Assembly: GCF_012027645.1 (NCBI RefSeq)
Contig: NZ_SNUU01000001.1
Location: forward strand, 1,860,001 to 1,924,000
DNA: 64,000 nucleotides
Direction: 5' to 3'
DNA from: Thermococcus sp. 18S1
GTDB lineage: Archaea; Methanobacteriota_B; Thermococci; Thermococcales; Thermococcaceae
A program made the position numbers and the translations under genes. This document shows, one piece after another, positions 4,868 through 26,544 of this stretch (position 1 is the stretch's first letter; every line of letters starts with the position of its first letter). The notes beneath the pieces were generated by a model. That model was not told where the DNA came from. It was given only the letters and a program-made list of their open reading frames with translations, and did no database searches.

Positions 4868-5392
4868 TCAGCCTCCCGCCTGAAGGAGAAGCCCCGGAAG
4901 CTGGGGCTGCCTCTGGCCGAGCTCCTGATCGAGCATGAAGAGAACCTGCGGGCTGTCCTTCGCGAACTTGAGCTTATCGACTATTTTCTTGACGTTTGCC
5001 TCTTCCTCGACCTGCTCGTTTATGAACCACTCAAGGAATGCCCTCGTGGAGTAGTCCTTCTCCTCCTCCGCAAGTGCGGCAAGCTCGTTTATGCACTTGC
5101 TTATGAACTGCTCGTGTTCGTAGGCGGCCTCAAAGGCAGCGAGCGGTGACTCCCACTCCTTTGGTGGTTTTTGAACCTCCTTCAGCTCGACCCTGCCGTT
5201 CCTGTCGTAGATGTAGTTGTAGAACCTCAGGGCATGGCCAAGCTCCTCCTCGGCCTGGGCCTTCATCCAGTTGGCGAAGCCCTCAAGGTTCATGTCCTCA
5301 AAATAGGCTGCCATCGAGAAGTACAGGTAGGCCGAATAAAGCTCTCTGTTCAGCTGCTCGTTGAGGGCTTCGAGCATCTTTTCGCTCAGCAT
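4868..5392 (-). CDS. ftn: Ferritin (non-haem, iron storage)
   Basis: A 174-residue classical ferritin that oxidises Fe(II) and stores ferric mineral in a 24-subunit cytoplasmic cage. The four-helix bundle carries ferroxidase ligands in [13 protein letters not shown], the [15 protein letters not shown] segment and a later [26 protein letters not shown] stretch typical of bacterial and archaeal FtnA. The ATG at 5392 has a strong GGAGGTGG site; the GTG at 5401 lies within that site. A TATA box (CTTTTAAAG on the minus strand, about 5424-5433) precedes it. It sits between suf and thiI, linking iron storage with Fe-S and sulfur chemistry. Confidence 0.95.
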
Positions 5393-18529: not shown

Positions 18530-19045
18530 ATGGTAGTGGAAAGAAAAATGACCCGGAAGTTTCTGGAGGATGCCTTCGCCGGCGAGAGCATGGCCCACAT
18601 GAGATACCTGATTTTTGCCGAACAGGCGGAGAAAGATGGATATCCCAACATAGCCAAGCTTTTCAGGGCTATCGCCCATGCGGAGTTCATTCACGCGAAG
18701 AACCACTTTATAGCCCTCGGGCACCTGGGTAAGACCCCGGAGAACCTTCAGGCAGGTATAGACGGTGAAACCTACGAGGTCGAGGAGATGTACCCGGTCT
18801 TCAAGAACACCGCCGAGTTCCAGGGGGAGAAGGATGCCGTTAGAACCACCCACTACGCTTTGGAGGCCGAGAAAATACACGCCGAGCTTTACACCAAAGC
18901 CAAAGAGCTTGCCGAGAGCGGGAAGGACATTGAGATAAAGAAGGTTTACATCTGTCCCGTCTGCGGCTACACTGCGGTTGACGAGGCACCCGAATACTGC
19001 CCTGTGTGCGGTGCCCCCAGGGACAAGTTCGTGGTCTTTGAGTAA
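18530..19045 (+). CDS. rbr: Rubrerythrin
   Basis: 171 residues. An N-terminal diiron four-helix domain (about 1-130) carries FAGESMAHMRY, the AHAEFIHAKNH motif and EAEKIHAEL. A C-terminal rubredoxin-type domain has CPVCGYTAVDEAPEYCPVCG. It reduces hydrogen peroxide with electrons from rubredoxin and its reductase. The ATG at 18530 follows GGTGATATGGT. Its promoter has an elaborate set of inverted repeats. It is the only gene of the island with the complete two-domain rubrerythrin layout. Confidence 0.96.
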   Translation: MVVERKMTRKFLEDAFAGESMAHMRYLIFAEQAEKDGYPNIAKLFRAIAHAEFIHAKNHFIALGHLGKTPENLQAGIDGETYEVEEMYPVFKNTAEFQGEKDAVRTTHYALEAEKIHAELYTKAKELAESGKDIEIKKVYICPVCGYTAVDEAPEYCPVCGAPRDKFVVFE

Positions 19046-19064
19046 ACCTTTCGTTTTTCCACTT

Positions 19065-19091
19065 CTCAAGTTTGAGGCGCAAACCTTATAA
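19065..19091 (+). promoter_or_regulatory. Rubredoxin/superoxide reductase promoter
   Basis: TATA box CCTTATAAGG (19082-19091) about 35 bases before the rubredoxin start. Just upstream lies CTCAA-GT-TTGAG (19065-19076), a 12-base inverted repeat, and a CAAACC half-site like those of the rubrerythrin promoter. Confidence 0.5.
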
Positions 19092-19124
19092 GGGCGGACT
19101 AATAACATTAGGATGGTGGAAGAA

Positions 19125-19286
19125 ATGGCGAAATGGAAGTGTATAGTCTGTGGCTACATCTACGATGAGGACGAGGGCGACCCCGACACGGGGATTGAGC
19201 CCGGAACCAAGTTCGAAGACCTTCCCGAGGACTGGGTCTGCCCGCTCTGCGGTGCACCAAAGGACATGTTTGAAAAGATAGAGTGA
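19125..19286 (+). CDS. rub: Rubredoxin
   Basis: A 53-residue rubredoxin, the electron carrier between the NAD(P)H:rubredoxin reductase and superoxide reductase, rubrerythrin and the flavodiiron protein. One iron is bound by two CxxCG knuckles, CIVCGY near residue 6 and CPLCGA near residue 39, at the normal spacing. The start ATG at 19125 follows GGATGGTGG; an upstream ATG at 19113 would add four residues. Ten bases separate it from the superoxide reductase gene, so they form one operon. Confidence 0.96.
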
Positions 19287-19296
19287 GGTGGTTGAG

Positions 19297-19644
19297 ATGA
19301 TAAGCGGAACCATAAAGAGTGGAGACTGGAAGGGGGAGAAGCACGTCCCCGTTATAGAGTACGAGAAGGAGGGCGACCTCGTTAAGGTCGAGGTCCAGGT
19401 CGGCAAGGAGATACCGCACCCGAACACCCCCGAGCACCACATCGCCTGGATTGAGCTCTACTTCCACCCCGAGGGGGAGAACTTCCCGATTCTCGTCGGC
19501 AGGGTTGCCTTCACAAACCACAGCGACCCGCTCACCGAGCCCAGGGCGGCCTTCTTCTTCAAGACTGCCAAGAAGGGCAAGCTCTACGCCCTGAGCTACT
19601 GCAACATTCACGGCCTCTGGGAGAACGAGGTCACGCTTGAGTGA
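19297..19644 (+). CDS. sor: Superoxide reductase (neelaredoxin type)
   Basis: 115 residues of the one-iron superoxide reductase, which converts superoxide to H2O2 without making O2. The iron centre ligands are visible: HVP near residue 17, HPNTPEHH in the first half, and CNIHGLW near the C-terminus (Cys plus His). No N-terminal desulforedoxin domain is present. The glutamate of the GEKHVP segment matches the family's sixth ligand. ATG at 19297 behind GAGGTGG. Electrons come from the rubredoxin encoded just before it. Confidence 0.97.
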   Translation: MISGTIKSGDWKGEKHVPVIEYEKEGDLVKVEVQVGKEIPHPNTPEHHIAWIELYFHPEGENFPILVGRVAFTNHSDPLTEPRAAFFFKTAKKGKLYALSYCNIHGLWENEVTLE

Positions 19645-19660
19645 TTTTTCTGCCCCAACC

Positions 19661-19672
19661 CCCTCTTTTTTA
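19661..19672 (+). terminator. T-tract terminator after superoxide reductase
   Basis: CCCTCTTTTTTA lies about 20 bases after the stop, preceded by a shorter T-run at 19645-19649; typical archaeal U-tract terminators. Confidence 0.45.
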
Positions 19673-19752
19673 ATGATTCGTCAGGAGTCGGCCGGAAGGT
19701 TTATCTGGAGAAGCGTTGAATCTACAGCATAGCAAGATGGACGCTGGAAAAT

Positions 19753-20400
19753 ATGGCCGAACTGTGGTATAATATCGTGATGAGTGTTACAGGAGTGCTT
19801 ATATTCTTCGGTATTTTCCTTGCATGGACGATTCTCCGCAAGATTGAAAAGCACAGGGAGGATGCCGGGAGCCCCAACCCGACAGTTATGCTGCTCGGGG
19901 GACTTCTGACTTCTCTGGGATTCACCTGGGAGATTCTCGGCAACGACAAGATTGGGGCCGTGGTGCTTTCCCTCATCCTGATTGGCCCCGCGATGATCGG
20001 ATACGCACTCGCCAACGTTGGTGTCGAGAGAATAACCGGGAGGCTCATGATTCAGAGCGTTCTAACGCTTCTGAGCCTGTTTCTGGCAGGGAACTACTCG
20101 ACTGTTGCCGTTGATGTAGCTTATGCCGGCCCGTTCCTAGCTCTCCTCCTCCTAATGAACGCCCATATGATGATTGAAAATGGAATCCAAAGACATCTAA
20201 TAGTGCTCTCCTCATGGCTCATCGTCCTGTTCTCCTGGACCCGATACGCCTTGGAGGATACCTCCGGGCTGCTGAAGGTCATGATAGTACTGCCATACGT
20301 TGCCGCGGTGCTCCTCTGGGTAGGCGTTCTCACGGTGACATACTTCAAATTATCCTCTAACTACCCCACATTACACATAACCGCCCAGGAAGGCTTATAA
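19753..20400 (+). CDS. Uncharacterised membrane protein, six to seven helices
   Basis: 215 residues, almost all hydrophobic segments: about six or seven membrane helices, with a charged cytoplasmic stretch KIEKHREDAGS after the first helix. I do not recognise a named family. In size and style it resembles the membrane half of the DUF835 protein encoded at 21780, but it has no DUF835 domain. It sits between the superoxide reductase and a DUF59 gene, and its stop is only 33 bases before the latter. Confidence 0.7.
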   Translation: MAELWYNIVMSVTGVLIFFGIFLAWTILRKIEKHREDAGSPNPTVMLLGGLLTSLGFTWEILGNDKIGAVVLSLILIGPAMIGYALANVGVERITGRLMIQSVLTLLSLFLAGNYSTVAVDVAYAGPFLALLLLMNAHMMIENGIQRHLIVLSSWLIVLFSWTRYALEDTSGLLKVMIVLPYVAAVLLWVGVLTVTYFKLSSNYPTLHITAQEGL

Positions 20401-20433
20401 CCGAACACTCCAAATCCACCACGGGTGAGAAAA

Positions 20434-20793
20434 ATGAAGGTTTACATGCCAAACAGGGAATGGCCTGAGCACTACAGAGCGGTTCTGGACGAGCTCGCCA
20501 AAATAACCGACCCCGTTACTGGAGGAGACATCCTGGATTCCGGTGTCGTTGCCGGCCTGGAAGTCGCGGACGACACGTTAAAGGTATGGCTCAACTTCGA
20601 GAGTCACGCCGAGTACAACATAACCGGAGCGAGTGCGATAGCGTACTCCAAGATAATCGGGGACATAATCGAGCGCTTTGCCCTTGTGAAGTTCCAGAAC
20701 GTCTACGTCTACGACCTCAAGAACAACCCTGTTGGAGTGTTTGAGAACAAAAAGGGATACACAATCGAAGACATCAGCACTGAGAGGGTCTGA
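20434..20793 (+). CDS. DUF59 (MIP18-like) protein, first copy
   Basis: 119 residues of the DUF59/MIP18 fold, with the usual ITDPVTGGDILDSGVVAGLEV opening of the family. DUF59 proteins take part in Fe-S cluster assembly or transfer. No cysteine is present, so it would not ligate a cluster by itself. The start is the ATG at 20434 behind GGTGAG. A TATA box is suggested at GGCTTATAA (20392-20400). Three bases separate it from a second DUF59 gene. Confidence 0.8.
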   Translation: MKVYMPNREWPEHYRAVLDELAKITDPVTGGDILDSGVVAGLEVADDTLKVWLNFESHAEYNITGASAIAYSKIIGDIIERFALVKFQNVYVYDLKNNPVGVFENKKGYTIEDISTERV

Positions 20794-20796
20794 GAT

Positions 20797-21144
20797 TTGG
20801 GCCTCTTTGACGTTTTTACACGGAAACAGACGCTATCCGAACCAAGGGAAGACCTGCCCCCCGATGTCAAGAACGTGGTTCGAATCCTGCGGAAAGTGAA
20901 AGACCCAGAGACTGGACTGGACATCGTAGATGAAGGACTTCTCTACGGTATTACGGTCAAAGGTCGGAGTGTCGAGCTGTTTCTTCTGATGGCCCGATCA
21001 ACACCTGAATGTCACTTCTGTCAGATGCTGGCCATAAACCTGCAGAACAAGATCTTAAGTGACATAGTTGAAGTCCTAAAGCAGGAAGGGTTTAATAAGA
21101 TAAAGATTTACAATGAAATTGGTCTGCTACTTGCGGAGGGATGA
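20797..21144 (+). CDS. DUF59 (MIP18-like) protein, second copy
   Basis: 115 residues, TTG start after GAGGGTCTGAG. The DUF59 core reads KDPETGLDIVDEGLLYGITV, and the ECHFC pair in the STPECHFCQML helix is where the family may bind metal or a cluster. It is more complete than the first copy. The tandem pair lies inside the oxygen-defence island, followed three bases later by a rubrerythrin-like gene, which suggests Fe-S repair or metallation of diiron proteins. That role is inference. Confidence 0.82.
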   Translation: MGLFDVFTRKQTLSEPREDLPPDVKNVVRILRKVKDPETGLDIVDEGLLYGITVKGRSVELFLLMARSTPECHFCQMLAINLQNKILSDIVEVLKQEGFNKIKIYNEIGLLLAEG

Positions 21145-21147
21145 GTT

Positions 21148-21672
21148 ATGGTTCGACAGGAAATTGATGAGGGACTTCCCCTCGAGAAGGTCCGGGACTT
21201 CTCGCTCGAGGAACTCCTTGGAATGGCCATAAAGGCCGAGATCGGGGCGAGAAAGTTCTACGAGAGCCTTGCCGAAAGAATAGAGATCCAGGCCCTAAAG
21301 GATAAGATAGAGTGGCTCGCCGGGGAGGAGGGCAAGCACGAGGCGCTGCTCAGGAAAATGCACGAGTCAATGTTTCCCGGGAAGGAGATTATCTATCCAA
21401 CGGAGCATATAGGGCCGGAGCTCCAGCCCGTGGCGAGGGAGCTTCACCGGGCCGAAGATATTCTGGAGCTCATCAGATGGGCCATCAGAGCGGAGGATAT
21501 AGCGGCTAAATTCTACGCCGAGATCGAGAATCTCGTCGATACCGATGACAAAAAGAGGCTCATGCGCTACATCAGTGACATGGAGAAGGGCCACTACTAC
21601 ACACTGAAGGCTGAGTACGAGCTTCTTCTCGACTGGGAGATGTACAGCGGAATGATGCACGTTGGACCTTGA
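21148..21672 (+). CDS. Rubrerythrin-like diiron protein
   Basis: 174 residues with E-x-x-H pairs at 61-64 (EGKH) and 146-149 (EKGH) in a ferritin-like bundle, and no rubredoxin domain. The C-terminal HYYTLKAEYELLLDWEMY resembles the ends of the paralogues at 25583 and 31713, so these form one subfamily. It is cotranscribed with the two DUF59 genes. Probable peroxidase or iron-handling role. Confidence 0.82.
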   Translation: MVRQEIDEGLPLEKVRDFSLEELLGMAIKAEIGARKFYESLAERIEIQALKDKIEWLAGEEGKHEALLRKMHESMFPGKEIIYPTEHIGPELQPVARELHRAEDILELIRWAIRAEDIAAKFYAEIENLVDTDDKKRLMRYISDMEKGHYYTLKAEYELLLDWEMYSGMMHVGP

Positions 21673-21677
21673 GGTAC

Positions 21678-21705
21678 TGGACATCAGGGACGTCCATGCC
21701 TTTTT
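21678..21705 (+). terminator. Hairpin plus T-run terminator
   Basis: TGGAC-N9-GTCCA can extend to an eight-base stem with one mismatch and is followed by TTTTT at 21701-21705. It lies six bases after the rubrerythrin-like gene. Confidence 0.5.
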
Positions 21706-21779
21706 ATTATTGCCTCGCCGTTAAAGTTTTTAAGCAATAGCCTCCACAATGGAATGTATCCCATCATGGAGGATTAGAG

Positions 21780-22820
21780 ATGATAATAAGTCCTCAATGG
21801 TTAACTGTGGCGCTAAAAATAGCGGCCAGTGTTGTATTTTTGAGGGCTTATCTAAAGAGTAGCAGGAAATCAGCTCTCTTCCTATCCTTCGGGTGGATAA
21901 GCAGTATTCCCGTGTCCCCAATCGGTATGGGCTCAAATCCGGAAGTAGAATGTATCTTCACCGGAACGGCGGTTGCGTTCACACTTCTGGGCATACTGAC
22001 CCTGATTGAGGAGGAGGGCGGCAGAAAATCGCCCAAGGCAATGCATCTCACCCTCCCCACACTCCCCGCGTTGTACGGTATAATAGAAGCATCCCTCGGC
22101 GGCTCATGCACTGGAACCTATGTTACCAGCGGGGTTCTGTTGCTTATAGCGGGAGTTGTATTCACCGAACTCATGTCCACATACTACAGAAGAAATGCAA
22201 CTTTGTTTGGGGCAGTCCTGGGTATCTCAGGCATCGCGAGCATGTTGCACCCCGTAGCGTATGAGAACGGCCTCCTCACGCCCAACGTTGTCATGTACAC
22301 CTCCCTACTGATGGCCACCATGACGGCATACGCGTACTACAGCGTTATATACAGCAGGCATTTTCTGGAACTGGAAAATCTTGCCTCCATGCGAGGGACG
22401 GAAACAGTCGTTTCAGGGAGCAGTATAGTGTCCGAGAAAGACTTCAAAGAAATTTCAGCTCGCCTTGATGGATACCCTGCACTGGCATTCCTCCGCAATT
22501 CAACGCCGATGAACGGATGGATAAGCTACCGGATAAGCACCGTGCAGGGTCCCAACGTGATACCCCCGACTGCAATGTACCGGATCACGGAGACCGCCAA
22601 CATGTACCTCCTGGAGATGGAGAGGATGGGAAACAAAGGAATCATCATAATTGAGGCAGTCGAATTTCTTAAACTCTACAATGACTTCAGAAGCGTTGTC
22701 AAAATGCTGGCAACTCTAAGGGACAGCGTTCTCATCCACGATGGGGCCCTTATTATCGTCACCGAAAAAGATATCTGGGATGAGGGAGAGTGGAACATCC
22801 TGCTGAGGACCCTCGGGTGA
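21780..22820 (+). CDS. Membrane protein with C-terminal DUF835 domain
   Basis: 346 residues. About seven membrane helices fill residues 5-200; the last 130 residues form a cytoplasmic DUF835-type domain (GWISYRIST near the start of it, GIIIIEAVEFLKLYNDF and LIIVTEKDIWDEGEW later). DUF835 is common in Thermococcales, often joined to sensor or membrane parts, and its role is not established. The ATG follows GGAGGATTAGAG. Position in the oxygen-defence island suggests a membrane sensor; this is inference. Confidence 0.8.
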   Translation: MIISPQWLTVALKIAASVVFLRAYLKSSRKSALFLSFGWISSIPVSPIGMGSNPEVECIFTGTAVAFTLLGILTLIEEEGGRKSPKAMHLTLPTLPALYGIIEASLGGSCTGTYVTSGVLLLIAGVVFTELMSTYYRRNATLFGAVLGISGIASMLHPVAYENGLLTPNVVMYTSLLMATMTAYAYYSVIYSRHFLELENLASMRGTETVVSGSSIVSEKDFKEISARLDGYPALAFLRNSTPMNGWISYRISTVQGPNVIPPTAMYRITETANMYLLEMERMGNKGIIIIEAVEFLKLYNDFRSVVKMLATLRDSVLIHDGALIIVTEKDIWDEGEWNILLRTLG

Positions 22821-22841
22821 TCTTCCGATTAAACCCACCAT

Positions 22842-23285
22842 TCACTCCCTGTACTTTGCTATTAGCTCCGCCAGAATCCTGTGGTGCTCCTTCTCGTTCT
22901 CGACAAGGGCCTCGGCGAGGCTCTTAAACAGGGGGTGGGTCATCTTCTCCGCCATCTTCTGGTAGGTCTCTATCATGTCCTTCTCGATGTCCAGGTGCAT
23001 CTCGGCAAAGCGCTTGACCAGGGCTTTCTGCTCGGGTACGAGTTCGACCTCCTTGATCTCCTCTATTGGCCCCTCTCCCGCGAGCTTCTCCAGCTCCTTC
23101 TGGGCTTCCAGAATGGCCTTCATCAGGTGCTTGTGGATTATTGTGTCGACGGCTATCCTGCCAACGACTTCCTCAACCTTGGTGTACCTCAGTCCCTGTC
23201 CCCTTATGAGGCCGAGACCATCGGTGTAGCTCGCGGCGGCCTTCTTTTCGGTCTCATAGGCCCTCTTAACAAGTGGTTCAACCAT
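22842..23285 (-). CDS. Ferritin-like four-helix protein
   Basis: 147 residues of long amphipathic helices. The last helix has EKEH (in ENEKEHHRILAEL) and an earlier one IHKHLMKAIL, in places where diiron ligands would sit, but the first glutamate pair is less clear than in the other paralogues. It could bind iron or be a structural relative. The ATG at 23285 follows GGTGATG. It is separated from the encapsulin-cargo-like gene by about 125 bases and has its own TATA-like TTAATAACG. Confidence 0.7.
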   Translation of the reverse strand: MVEPLVKRAYETEKKAAASYTDGLGLIRGQGLRYTKVEEVVGRIAVDTIIHKHLMKAILEAQKELEKLAGEGPIEEIKEVELVPEQKALVKRFAEMHLDIEKDMIETYQKMAEKMTHPLFKSLAEALVENEKEHHRILAELIAKYRE

Positions 23286-23411
23286 GCACATCACCAGAAC
23301 TACATGAACATCGAACCTTAATAACGTTTTTCATTGAGCAAAAGGGTGCATCAACATACTGCTTAGTGCACGAGAATCGAAAGGAAGCGAGGGAAAAGAG
23401 GAACGAAAAGG

Positions 23412-23714
23412 TCACAGTTCGACCTTTATGCCGGTCTCTTCCTCAACCTCCTCAAAGCCTTCCTTCATGTACTTCACGAGCTCCTCATCGACCTCAAGGA
23501 GCGCCGCCAGAAACTCCCCAACGTGCTCCTTTTCCTCGTTGGCGACGTCGTAGAATATGTGCTTTATCCTCTCATCCTCTATCAGCTCGGCCAGCTGTTC
23601 GTAGAAGCTTATGGCGTCGAGCTCGGCCTCGATGGCCCAGCGAAGGGCTTGAGCTATTTCCCTCTTTGAGAGGGGCTTCTCCCTCCCGAGGAGGTAGGGC
23701 TTTTCAGCGAGCAT
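23412..23714 (-). CDS. Stand-alone relative of the encapsulin-linked ferritin-like (EncFtn) domain
   Basis: 100 residues. The sequence from SKREI to ETGIK matches, in my reading, the N-terminal ferritin-like domain that Pyrococcus furiosus carries fused to its encapsulin shell. It has E31, then E61-x-x-H64 in ANEEKEHVGEF, the spacing of the EncFtn ferroxidase. The ORF stops where the shell would begin and no shell sequence follows in this window. EncFtn proteins form annular decamers that oxidise iron. ATG 23714 behind GGTGGTGA. Confidence 0.8.
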   Translation of the reverse strand: MLAEKPYLLGREKPLSKREIAQALRWAIEAELDAISFYEQLAELIEDERIKHIFYDVANEEKEHVGEFLAALLEVDEELVKYMKEGFEEVEEETGIKVEL

Positions 23715-23756
23715 GGTATCACCACCCCAAGTTCTCATCCATCCTAAATAACACTT

Positions 23757-24308
23757 TCACCTGAGGAACTTCGAGACGAACGGGCTCTCTCCGGGCTTGG
23801 TTCTCCTGAAGTGGCCGCTCGGCTTGCCGGTAAGGAGCTCCTCAAACCAGGCCTCGTGCTCGATCTCCTCGTGGAGTATCGCTAGGGCCAGGTCGTACGT
23901 TCTCGGGTCTTTTCCAAAGGTGTACTTGCATATCTCGGTGTAAACACCGACCGCACAGCGCTCCGCCTCCAGAAGAACCTTGAGGATGTTCTCAACGATC
24001 GGCTCCTCGGGAAGGTAAGCGTCGCGGCACCAGGCCATCTTGGAGAAGTCAACGATGTCCCTCGGGAGCTCACCGCCGAGCTCGTAAATCCTCGGCACCA
24101 GAGCCTCAAAATGGTTCCTGTCCTCAAGGCGGGCGTCCTCGACTATCTCCTTTATCGTTTCACCTTCCATACCTGCCGCATGGTTCCTCAGAACCGTGTA
24201 GTAGTAATAGGTCGTAAACTCCGCGGCGGCTGCTTTAAGCAACATGTCCAGGAGTTTTTCCACATCTATTCCGGCTTTCTCAACAAGCCTTCGGTTGTGT
24301 TCAGACAT
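23757..24308 (-). CDS. Dps-like protein (DPSL, thioferritin type)
   Basis: 183 residues, a ferritin-like protein of the archaeal Dps-like class that uses H2O2 to oxidise iron in a 12-subunit cage. Diiron motifs are [18 protein letters not shown] and [12 protein letters not shown]. The pair in [12 protein letters not shown] is the cysteine motif that separates DPSL from true Dps. ATG 24308 follows GGTGA. It is divergent from the Fur/PerR gene across a shared operator region, and beside the EncFtn-like gene, the order I recall for the P. furiosus encapsulin locus. Confidence 0.9.
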
Positions 24309-24342
24309 AGTTTTCACCAAAAACTGTTGGCATTTCTACCTA

Positions 24343-24390
24343 ATAAACTTTTCTATTTAGAAGTTAGTTCTAATTAGAAAGACTTATAAG
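24343..24390. promoter_or_regulatory. Shared operator between the Dps-like gene and the Fur/PerR gene
   Basis: Overlapping inverted repeats: TTCTA-TT-TAGAA (24351-24362), TTAGAA-N5-TTCTAA (24357-24373) and the perfect palindrome TTCTAATTAGAA (24368-24379). The regulator's TATA box CTTATAAG follows at 24383-24390, placing transcription start almost at its ATG. On the minus strand a TATA-like GTTTATTAGG (24339-24348) serves the Dps-like gene. The half-site TTAGAA is similar to that of bacterial PerR/Fur boxes, so autoregulation is likely. Confidence 0.65.
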
Positions 24391-24411
24391 CCGGGGAGTG
24401 TAGCTTAAATC

Positions 24412-24789
24412 ATGTGGAAAGAAAAGGCCCTCAAACGGCTCAAAGAGAGCGGATACAAGCTCACACCGCAGAGGCTCAAACTGGTGGAGATACTCGATAG
24501 AATCGGGAACGAGCACCCATCGCTCAAGGATGTTCTCGGCGAAATCAGGGCGGAGTTCCCAACCATGAGCTTTTCCACGCTCTACTCCAACGTCCTGACG
24601 CTGAAAGAGCTCGGCCTGCTCGAACTCTTCTCCCTGGACGGAGAAACGAGGGTGGAGCTCAACACGGAGCCGCACATCAACCTGATAAGCGGGGGCAAGG
24701 TTATCGACTTCAACGACCCCGAGATAATCGAAAAGATAAGGAAGAAGATCGGCCGGGACGTTAAGCTCGTCAACGTTCTGGTGGAATAA
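24412..24789 (+). CDS. perR: Fur/PerR-family metalloregulator without cysteines
   Basis: 125 residues. The N-terminal winged helix has the family's GYKLTPQRLKLVEIL and FSTLYSNVLTLKELGL recognition region; the C-terminal dimer part is short, with PHINLISGGKVIDF. It contains no cysteine at all, so the structural Cys4 zinc site of Bacillus PerR is absent. Candidate regulatory-metal ligands are H33-like in NEHPS and the DFNDPE region. The transcript appears leaderless. Its position next to Dps-like, rubrerythrin and peroxiredoxin genes favours peroxide or iron sensing; the exact metal is unknown. Confidence 0.85.
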   Translation: MWKEKALKRLKESGYKLTPQRLKLVEILDRIGNEHPSLKDVLGEIRAEFPTMSFSTLYSNVLTLKELGLLELFSLDGETRVELNTEPHINLISGGKVIDFNDPEIIEKIRKKIGRDVKLVNVLVE

Positions 24790-24900
24790 AGTGCAATAGC
24801 CGCATCAATCCCCTTTTTCCTTGTCTGGAGGCGTAGAAATAATTCTCTGGCAAAGTCTTTTATAGTACCGTTTCTCTAACACTATAGAGGACGTGATATT

Positions 24901-25602
24901 ATGAAGGTTCTGGTTCTCTCCACATTGCACCAGTTCCACGGCCACGTGGATTACTACACTTATGAAGACCTGGAGCGTATAATTTGGAGCTTCTCACCCG
25001 ATATCCTCGCCGTTGAACTGAGGCCTTCCGACGTTGAAGGCAGGGTGCCTCAGAGGATAAAGCAGGAGTACCAGAAAAGCGTTTATCCCCTGATCGATAA
25101 ACTAAAATGCGAGGTCATCCCACTCGAACCGGCCGAGCCGAAGTATTCCGAACTGATACAGATGGCGAGGGAATCAATGGAAAACGTACAGAAAAACAAT
25201 CCAGAGGCTCTGGAGCACTTCAAGCTCTACGTGGAGGCTTTGTATGAGGTGCTCTTCCAGTGGTGGAGTTCAGTCCTTGATGTCAATTCCTACGAGACAG
25301 ACCGGCATTTTGAGATCAAGCGCAGGTACCAGAACTCACTGTTCGGGGATAAAGAGGGCAGGGCATGGGAAGAATGGAACCGGCATTTCCTGGAACAGAT
25401 CCTCAAGGCAAATGAAGGGAGGAAGGACGGCAAGATGCTGGTTCTGGTTGGAGCCGAGCATTCGTACTGGCTGCGCGGGGAGCTCCGTAAAAGGCACGAC
25501 GTCCAATTACTGGAAGCCCCCGAAGTTCTGCCGGATATCATAGGATCCCGAGGTTCACGCCCCGGCAGTGGGAAGCAGGAATTCAGTCCACCTCAAGGCT
25601 GA
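24901..25602 (+). CDS. Uncharacterised protein, possibly TraB/TIKI-like fold
   Basis: 233 residues, no signal peptide. The start MKVLVLSTLHQFHGH, the ILAVELRPSD segment and the late VLVGAEHSYWLRGEL have the spacing of H, E-x-R and G-x-x-H motifs seen in the TraB/ChaN/TIKI superfamily; this is a weak fold guess. A helical middle (residues 60-160) is rich in charged residues. TATA box TTTTATAG near 24857. Its last 20 bases overlap the convergent rubrerythrin-like gene. Confidence 0.6.
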   Translation: MKVLVLSTLHQFHGHVDYYTYEDLERIIWSFSPDILAVELRPSDVEGRVPQRIKQEYQKSVYPLIDKLKCEVIPLEPAEPKYSELIQMARESMENVQKNNPEALEHFKLYVEALYEVLFQWWSSVLDVNSYETDRHFEIKRRYQNSLFGDKEGRAWEEWNRHFLEQILKANEGRKDGKMLVLVGAEHSYWLRGELRKRHDVQLLEAPEVLPDIIGSRGSRPGSGKQEFSPPQG

Positions 25603-26062
25603 AATCCTGATAGTCCATCCAGATGCCGGTCTTCATCACCGAGTCGTACTGGGCCTTGAGCAGCTCGTAGTGGCTCTTCTCCACCTTCGCCAGCTCTTCA
25701 AACACGCGCCGGACGTCCTCGTGTTCCGCCTCCCTGGCGGCCCTCTCGTAAAACTCCCAGGTCTTCTTTTCCTGCTCCATGCCTATTCTCACTGCATCCA
25801 CTTCACTCAGCTTGCTCTCGTCGGCCTCCACCCGAAGGCTCTCAAGGACGGCCCTGTCAACGGCGGGAAGTTCGCATTCCTCTATGAGCTTCTCGACGAA
25901 CTTCTCCTCGAACAGCTCCCAGTGGCCCGCCTCTTCGTTTGCCAGGAACAGAAACATCTTCCTGGCCCTCTCGTCACCGGCCTTTTTTGCCAGCCTTATG
26001 TAGAACTTCAACTCGGCCTTCTCAACTTCAAGGGCCAGGGCCAGAGCTTCAAGTTCGTTCAT
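25583..26062 (-). CDS. Rubrerythrin-like diiron protein
   Basis: 159 residues, ferritin-like, with E-x-x-H pairs at 44-47 (EAGH) and 128-131 (EKSH) and a C-terminal HYELLKAQYDSVMKTG similar to the paralogues at 21148 and 31713. No rubredoxin domain. It is transcribed behind bcp with 17 bases between them, so the peroxiredoxin and this protein are probably one operon and may act together on peroxide. Confidence 0.82.
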   Translation of the reverse strand: MNELEALALALEVEKAELKFYIRLAKKAGDERARKMFLFLANEEAGHWELFEEKFVEKLIEECELPAVDRAVLESLRVEADESKLSEVDAVRIGMEQEKKTWEFYERAAREAEHEDVRRVFEELAKVEKSHYELLKAQYDSVMKTGIWMDYQDFSLEVD

Positions 26063-26079
26063 ATTATCACCACATTAAT

Positions 26080-26544
26080 CTAGCCTTCCCCGCTAATTAG
26101 TCTTTTGGCCTCCTCGAGTACCTTTGCCGCGTGCCCCTTCGCGCGGACGTTGCGCTTTTCCCACACGATTTCTCCTTCTGGGTTGAGTATGAACGTGCTC
26201 CTTATCGCGCCTTCATATTCCCTGCCGTAGCGCTTCTTCTTACCCCACGCACCAAGGGCCCTGTGAAGCTCAGCGTTTGGGTCGCTGATGAGCCTGACCC
26301 TCAGTCCGTGCTTCTCTCTAAAGCGGACGTGGCTTTTCGGAGAGTCCCTGGAAACCCCTATCACCTGAAAGCCGAGCTTTTCGAACTCCCCAAGCAGTTC
26401 CGTGAACTCCTTCGCCTCGGTGGTACAGCCGGGCGTGTTGTCCTTGGGGTAGAAGTAGAGAACCGTCCACCTTCCAAGAACAACATCACGGAGGGATTTC
26501 TCGGTTCCGTCCTCGTCTAGAATCCCGATGTCCAGGTAGTTCAT
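26080..26544 (-). CDS. bcp: Bcp-type peroxiredoxin
   Basis: 154 residues that reduce peroxides. The Bcp hallmark YPKDNTPGCTTEAKEF holds the peroxidatic Cys; it is the only cysteine, so this is a 1-Cys form that needs an outside thiol or electron donor. The C-terminal part has STFILNPEGEI. The promoter carries a TTAGG-N4-CCTAA box overlapping a TTCTAATTAG sequence, which links it to both the Fur/PerR operator and the Mrp/NifX cluster promoters. Confidence 0.93.
   Translation of the reverse strand: MNYLDIGILDEDGTEKSLRDVVLGRWTVLYFYPKDNTPGCTTEAKEFTELLGEFEKLGFQVIGVSRDSPKSHVRFREKHGLRVRLISDPNAELHRALGAWGKKKRYGREYEGAIRSTFILNPEGEIVWEKRNVRAKGHAAKVLEEAKRLISGEG

Follow-up and report, generated by a model that had tools for sequence, protein, structure and literature searches.

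A conserved EncFtn-type ferritin-like protein without an encapsulin shell in Thermococcus sp. 18S1

The gene described here lies in the window, by which we mean the whole 64,000-nucleotide stretch of Thermococcus sp. 18S1 DNA that was analysed. It encodes a free EncFtn-type ferritin-like protein (FLP) that is transcribed in the same direction as a Dps gene and divergently from a Fur-family regulator. The features are as follows.

about 4967..5371, minus strand: canonical ferritin (PF00210, 165.8 bits), which lies away from FLP in the window and may act as an iron sink
21148..21672, plus strand: FerA, 174 aa, closely homologous to the PF1190 product of P. furiosus (2fzf)
22842..23285, minus strand: FerB, rubrerythrin-like ferritin-superfamily protein, 147 aa, the downstream neighbour in many loci
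23286..23411, no strand: spacer 3′ of FLP, 126 bp, the slot of the shell domain in fused genomes, with no detectable shell remnant
23412..23714, minus strand: FLP, 100 aa, an intact ORF with family and fold matches
within FLP: putative ferroxidase ligands E31, E61 and H64, and proposed C′ site E60 plus E63 (names from PMC11202242)
23757..24308, minus strand: DPSL, an archaeal Dps of the mini-ferritin family, 183 aa, whose stop codon lies 42 bp before the FLP start
24333-24346, 24350-24363 and 24367-24380, no strand: three tandem TTTCTANNTAGAAA-like boxes with 2, 1 and 1 mismatches and starts 17 bp apart
24412..24789, plus strand: Fur/PerR-family regulator, 125 aa, divergent from DPSL-FLP
25583..26062, minus strand: FerC, ferritin-superfamily protein, 159 aa, a candidate for PF1196 (P. 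furiosus archaeoferritin) by position

Positions 18530-26544 of the window form a dense oxidative-stress island with rubrerythrin, rubredoxin, FerA, FerB, FerC, FLP, Dps and Fur, and also a desulfoferrodoxin-type superoxide reductase and an AhpC/TSA peroxiredoxin. Two FeS_assembly_P proteins are likewise encoded around FLP-Dps-Fur. By Pfam, FLP-Dps-Fur is surrounded by rubrerythrin and three more ferritin-superfamily proteins. FerB had no PDB relatives at E 0.01, and positions 22000-25500 contained no Rfam families. DPSL aligned with the archaeal Dps 7stw over 183 of 183 residues (E 7.6e-110). The Dps-like neighbour noted in the original prediction is thus real, and in P. furiosus, too, PF1193 (Dps) stands next to the EncFtn homologue PF1192 (PMC5012862, PMC3401498), as the prediction had stated. 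The same sources place PF1190 (2fzf), PF1195 (Fur) and PF1196 (archaeoferritin) around this pair, and because of this order the window resembles the P. furiosus cluster minus the shell half of PF1192. We did not adopt the identification of FerC as PF1196; its position fits, but primers given in PMC3401498 imply protein ends unlike those of FerC in the loci inspected. FLP and DPSL probably belong to the same operon.

The boxes between DPSL and Fur were analysed in the window and across loci. The 64-kb window contained five TTTCTANNTAGAAA-like matches, three of them in the DPSL-Fur intergenic region (24333..24380), where 1.85 were expected in the window and 6 of 100 shuffles reached five; the window total alone is weak evidence for a motif. 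Across the 38 fetched loci with both DPSL and Fur, at least two boxes were present in 32 intergenic regions (mononucleotide shuffles predict 0.0), and the spacing was 17 bp in all 40 cases. This conservation across loci is a stronger argument for the boxes than the count in the window. They were present at both free and fused loci, and the Fur-family protein may bind them.

The original prediction had identified the 100-residue protein with the ferritin-like domain that is fused to the encapsulin shell in P. furiosus, ending at the junction. This identification held. In sequence searches of the PDB, FLP matched 5n5e, the crystal structure of the P. furiosus EncFtn domain, with E 4.6e-27, and its residues 1-98 aligned to residues 1-98 of 2e0z, the fused P. 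furiosus protein (PfV), with E 1.7e-26. Its C-terminal end coincides with the point where fused proteins start the linker and shell. The protein matched the Pfam family PF22277 (EncFtn-like) at 30.5 bits (cut-off 27) in a near tie with PF02915 (Rubrerythrin, 30.2 bits), and its best NCBIfam models, EncB_fam (66.5 bits) and TIGR04535 (54.1 bits), were below their cut-offs of 90 and 125, respectively. Matches to PHROGs were all weak (best E 0.0039, unknown function). Alignment with fused Thermococcales homologues, which had been proposed as a check, showed FLP to be 59-69% identical to the fused forms in 10 relatives.

An AF2 model built from 46 sequences (pLDDT 92) predicted helices at residues 17-44, 48-75 and 77-94, that is, a half-ferritin two-helix fold plus a short C-terminal helix. 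The model superposed on 5n5e with a TM score of 0.91, and the two 5n5e chains were the sole Foldseek matches at E ≤ 0.001; after them, among the matches listed, EncC, NE0167 and R. rubrum EncFtn followed with E values of 0.01 or weaker. Every one of the best 50 Foldseek matches listed was EncFtn-type. FLP residues E31, E61, H64 and Y38 correspond to R. rubrum E32, E62, H65 and Y39, and alanine substitution of E32, E62 or H65 in R. rubrum EncFtn abolished or reduced activity (PMC11202242). E31, Y38, E60, E61 and H64 were invariant in all 80 aligned Thermococcaceae loci. FLP is a single two-helix half without a rubredoxin domain, whereas rubrerythrins are defined by both ExxH halves in one chain plus rubredoxin. 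It has the characters of the s-FLP class, being short (100 aa) and having neither a long tail nor a targeting peptide; its C-terminus, inspected by eye, does not fit the targeting pattern [LF]x[VI]xx[LI] given in PMC11202242. The sequence comparisons and the fold model together support the assignment of the window protein as an EncFtn domain, not an ordinary rubrerythrin.

A search of the genome for a shell gene, also proposed with the original prediction, was negative in the window genome (99.92% complete), both with PF04454, the Pfam family for the Family 1 shell, and with a 235-aa Thermococcales shell query. This query matched 10 of the 94 Thermococcaceae genomes (9 of 74 high-quality genomes), always inside a fused ORF. 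A separate shell gene acting in trans was likewise rejected, because none was found by Pfam in the window's own genome or its relatives, or by the 235-aa query. Across the wider phylum, PF04454 matched 11 of 115 genomes. The 11th match (G101, locus L142, contig C51) was identified by PHROGs as a phage major head protein (E 4.7e-16), adjoins a match to a head-maturation protease and was therefore not counted as an encapsulin; it is an example of a PF04454 (encapsulin/Linocin) false positive in encapsulin searches.

Shell remnants were also sought beside free FLP genes. No shell pseudogene was detected in 70 unfused loci by tblastn at E 0.01, and a finer DNA comparison of the four loci whose free FLPs are nested among fused forms (see below) revealed a remnant in one, G079. 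When the window spacer was compared with the 10 fused shell genes, the longest common words were 7-10 bp. The 10-bp word, shared with L043, was equalled in 3 of 60 shuffles, indicating that the window spacer contains no shell signal above chance. Of the features that define Family 1 encapsulin cargo, FLP has neither an accompanying shell gene that we could find nor a targeting peptide. These results confirm that the window encodes a real, conserved, shell-less EncFtn.

FLP was found in 85 of the 94 Thermococcaceae genomes (E 1e-8), unfused in 75 and fused in 10, and the nine genomes without it were incomplete (53-82%). The fused ORFs were 346-378 aa long. The count of 75 includes G050, in which the N-terminal part of FLP is broken by a TGA codon. 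In Thermococcaceae the unfused FLP is the usual state, and fusion is exceptional. The fused alleles and most of the unfused ones occupy a common slot, with FerC - (Fur / Dps) - FLP - FerB as the frequent order, and some loci, notably those of genus g3 (a tool label), are without most of these neighbours. FerC was upstream of FLP at 70 of 80 loci, including all 10 fused ones. Dps was present in 41 of the 94 genomes, always beside FLP (39 fetched loci, the window, and G091, whose locus is at the end of a contig). By clade (defined below), it accompanied FLP at 29 of 57 main-clade, none of nine sub-clade, all 10 fused and none of four nested loci. At the 41 loci without Dps, FLP directly followed FerC in 31, with a gap of 0-412 bp, so that FLP stood directly after DPSL (39) or FerC (31) at 70 of the 80 loci. 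Three Dps genes were damaged. In two fused genomes, the Dps of G077 (L054:5382-5983) was in two pieces with a stop, and in G080 (L055:4581-4919) the match covered the last 56 residues only and Fur was shortened; in G057 (L065, main clade, free FLP), Dps had an inner stop.

Outside the family, 12 class-level relatives had unfused FLPs with open frames of 93-110 aa. None of these 12 loci had a significant shell match, and the seven that were read ORF by ORF had no shell gene adjoining FLP. A narrow-pattern scan of named genomes returned three loci, all from Thermococcales, and a search for free FLP on plasmids or phages gave no match. Viral contigs yielded one FLP relative, at L143:3584-4279 (IMG/VR UViG_3300005965_000002, 258 kb), where an EncFtn-like domain, 46% identical to FLP over the match, forms the C-terminal part of a 232-aa protein; genes for a ribose-phosphate pyrophosphokinase and ClpS lie nearby. 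The top fold match among viral proteins was BFVD A0A140F3M3 from Pyrobaculum filamentous virus 1, 87 aa long; the match is weak (TM 0.75 by query length, E 3.3e-3). An archaeal virus may thus carry a stand-alone EncFtn-like protein.

To place the free FLPs relative to the fused ones, an unrooted tree was built from 81 FLP domains (the 80 fetched loci plus PfV); residue column counts refer to the 80 loci. The window's own copy is represented in both by identical rows, and G024, G049, G050 and G091 were left out of both. The 11 fused rows and four unfused rows formed one clade (100/99), and the window-identical copies fell in a separate clade of 57 unfused rows (the main clade). The four nested unfused FLPs carry the fused-clade residues A63, Q79 and E82. 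The tree as drawn implies three losses among them, of which well-supported branches force two; on such branches the least number of forced changes is three overall, one being the main split. In G079 (L046, free and nested), FLP was 92.4% identical over 303 bp to that of the fused G075 (L047), and the downstream DNA 89.8% identical over 2 kb. The shell of G079 is replaced by a 171-bp spacer. Right after the FLP stop, this spacer has 19 bp that are identical to part of the shell gene (codons LQEASK); the longest such stretch in 300 spacer shuffles was 13 bp. The nested free FLPs and this remnant show that shells do get lost, and the loss in G079 is recent. That the unfused form is the usual state and that shell loss is visible in another lineage had escaped the original prediction.

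Two rooted trees were used to examine the window's own lineage. Tree 1 contained seven of the 12 class-level outgroups, and tree 2 contained 11 together with one row from a viral contig, for which a long branch was flagged. Both were built without L051 (divergent N-terminus, long branch), with 25 of the 57 main-clade rows and without Sulfolobales fused FLPs. EncC was tried as an outgroup and dropped from later trees because its branch had eight changes per site. The root was placed next to the fused forms of the Pyrococcus type, and the remaining fused forms grouped with the free clade: free rows and fused rows with W26 formed one clade with support of 92/99 (tree 1) and 87/88 (tree 2). Because the fused forms are paraphyletic in these trees, one ancient loss is favoured for the window lineage. 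Three residues accord with this grouping. W26, Q22 and F37 are present in six of the 10 fused forms and lacking in the other four; W26 and Q22 occur in all free main- and sub-clade FLPs and F37 in most of them, and the outgroup FLPs have E22 and mostly L37. We therefore regard an ancient shell loss in the window's own lineage as likely, so that the free state there would be derived and not primitive.

The strongest alternative is that the free FLP is primitive, in which case the protein stood alone in the ancestors of Thermococcaceae, the shell was fused to it once and spread by exchange at the locus, and the window lineage lost nothing. A free ancestor would fit the unfused class-level relatives without a shell match, the majority of unfused forms (75 of 85) and the window spacer, in which no shell remnant was found. 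In addition, the AU test did not reject monophyly of the fused forms together with the nested ones (p 0.159 for tree 1 and 0.153 for tree 2), and the polarity of columns was evenly split (two clear columns per side; weak columns two versus one). The FLP trees have only 100 columns. On the other hand, not one of the 200 bootstrap trees in either rooted run had a branch that separated the fused forms from all other rows, and both the well-supported grouping of free rows with W26-type fused rows and the residues that they share oppose primitive absence.

Exchange at the locus, which this alternative needs, is visible. Two genomes from a different genus (g5, a tool label; L111 and L113) encode an FLP protein identical to that of the window. 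In DNA comparisons of the window with the g5 genomes, FLP and Dps were 90-92% identical and Fur 84-85%, versus 68-77% for the flanking genes Rbr, Rd, SOR, h20425, h20797, FerA and GNAT. Because FLP-Dps is far more alike than its flanks, the block has moved between genera, and this exchange blurs the FLP tree. In the fused G035, from the window's genus, FLP was 71% identical versus 73-94% for other genes, which hints that this FLP was likewise exchanged. The identities of FLP and shell among fused genes are not parallel, a pattern suggestive of, and compatible with, exchange at the junction, but the AU tests were not significant (p 0.36 and 0.47) and we do not claim this discordance as proof of recombination. 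Overall, we consider a primitive free FLP unlikely, though a serious competitor. With regard to the shell "lost or split off" in the original prediction, its absence stood, loss is favoured but not proven in view of the AU values, and splitting off disagrees with a shell query that matched only inside fused ORFs.

The unfused main-clade FLPs are under purifying selection, with a median dN/dS of 0.079 (742 pairs with dS 0.1-1.5); the value for fused FLPs was 0.046 (eight pairs). The free and fused forms differ at the outer C′ site, which is proposed to serve Fe(II) entry and consists of Glu61 and Glu64 in R. rubrum, and in archaeal fusion forms position 64 of that numbering is occupied by A or T (PMC11202242). 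At the equivalent FLP position 63, we found E in all 66 main- and sub-clade sequences and A in all 14 fused and nested ones; the 12 class-level outgroup sequences have T. E63 thus gives the free lineage a bacterial-type acidic C′ site that is missing from the fused forms examined.

The explanation that we consider reasonably probable as a whole is that FLP is a stand-alone cytosolic EncFtn ferroxidase of the iron and peroxide response, which hands Fe(III) to Dps or ferritin and whose shell was deleted early. A di-iron ferroxidase centre would be built from E31, E61, H64 and Y38 of two paired two-helix monomers, and the assembly is probably the open decameric ring that the excised P. furiosus domain (5n5e) adopts. 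FLP would be expressed downstream of Dps under the divergent Fur-family regulator and would work in the cytosol without an encapsulin shell, oxidising Fe(II) when the cell is under iron or peroxide stress. The resulting Fe(III) would pass to Dps or another ferritin-superfamily store and not to an encapsulin lumen. In evolutionary terms, the shell half of an ancestral fused EncFtn-encapsulin gene would have been deleted once, early in Thermococcaceae, with about three later deletions in relatives. Ferroxidase activity and ring assembly are proposed for the window FLP by analogy with the excised P. furiosus domain, and Fe(III) hand-over is a hypothesis.

The need for a partner follows from work on R. 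rubrum EncFtn, which is able to oxidise iron but not to mineralise it, and which outside the shell aggregates in the presence of iron (PMC5012862). A shell-less EncFtn should therefore work poorly or do harm if no partner takes over its product. In the window, Dps would be the obvious Fe(III) sink. DPSL is missing from 28 of 57 main-clade, nine of nine sub-clade and four of four nested loci, so Dps is not a universal partner; as about half of the main-clade loci are without it, FerC or ferritin must serve there, or the role is peroxide scavenging or that of a chaperone. A more specific arrangement, a two-part store in which a Dps dodecamer is supplied by an FLP ring that oxidises Fe(II), E63 aids iron entry and cytosolic hand-over replaces the shell, is in our estimate doubtful. 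If it were true, a single locus across Thermococcaceae would display, as a series found in nature, how the shell is kept, lost and replaced.

FLP could alternatively act mainly as a peroxide scavenger, an iron chaperone or an accessory subunit of DPSL or FerC, and not as a mineralising ferroxidase. Its setting in a dense oxidative-stress cluster, its place directly after DPSL or FerC and the lack of any mineral compartment in our searches are consistent with such a role, which we nevertheless judge improbable, because all of the ferroxidase ligands and the acidic C′ site, with its role proposed in PMC11202242, are conserved. It is very unlikely that FLP is housed in trans by a different shell, for example an A-domain encapsulin of Family 4: PMC8346489 reports Family 4 proteins in all Thermococcus and Pyrococcus genomes sequenced at its time, but the Family 4 operons named there carry other enzymes, no Family 1 shell was found in the window genome and the FLP C-terminus is without the targeting pattern of PMC11202242. 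That FLP is an ordinary small rubrerythrin-type protein with a superficial EncFtn likeness is scarcely credible, since the similar PF02915 score and the sub-threshold EncB_fam score are outweighed by the identity to fused FLPs, the end-to-end alignment with 5n5e and 2e0z, the uniformly EncFtn-type fold matches among the best 50 listed and the single two-helix unit of 100 aa.

The encapsulin shell is a virus-like, virus-derived protein compartment. A conserved and selected shell-less EncFtn in 75 of 85 FLP genomes sits oddly with the view, drawn from R. rubrum in PMC5012862, that EncFtn must be housed in an encapsulin to store iron. The 75 free and 10 fused genomes form a comparative set for the purpose of the shell, for how cells cope without it and for the loss of a virus-derived compartment. 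Candidates for testing are E63 as an adaptation to the shell-less state, Dps as a replacement sink and the recent deletion in G079 versus G075. A literature search that covered few subscription papers found no description of a stand-alone Thermococcales EncFtn.

Among known systems, FLP is closest to the PfV EncFtn domain (PF1192/PFC_05175; 5n5e, 2e0z), which it resembles in fold, length to the junction, ligands and adjacency to Dps. It differs from PfV in having no shell domain and in carrying E63 where all fused forms examined have A, and free FLPs further have N59, L79, Y82 and E93 where fused forms have mostly R, Q, E and L/M, respectively. The s-FLP class, represented by N. europaea NE0167 (3k6c), is likewise short and without a targeting peptide and is among the best fold matches. 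NE0167 is bacterial and about 26% identical to FLP over the match, whereas FLP is linked to an archaeal Dps and Fur; encapsulation of the s-FLP class is left open in a review (PMC11202242), whereas shell absence was tested for the window FLP. The EncFtns with targeting peptides, R. rubrum Rru_A0973 and M. xanthus EncC, have in common with FLP the two-helix unit, the ferroxidase centre and the E64-type C′ glutamate. In contrast to them, FLP has no targeting peptide, no shell was found for it and it has D56 where the bacterial motif has H. Finally, the archaeal Dps 7stw is kin to the neighbouring gene and shares iron and peroxide handling with FLP as common ground, but Dps belongs to another ferritin subfamily and forms its own cage, which makes it a partner candidate only.
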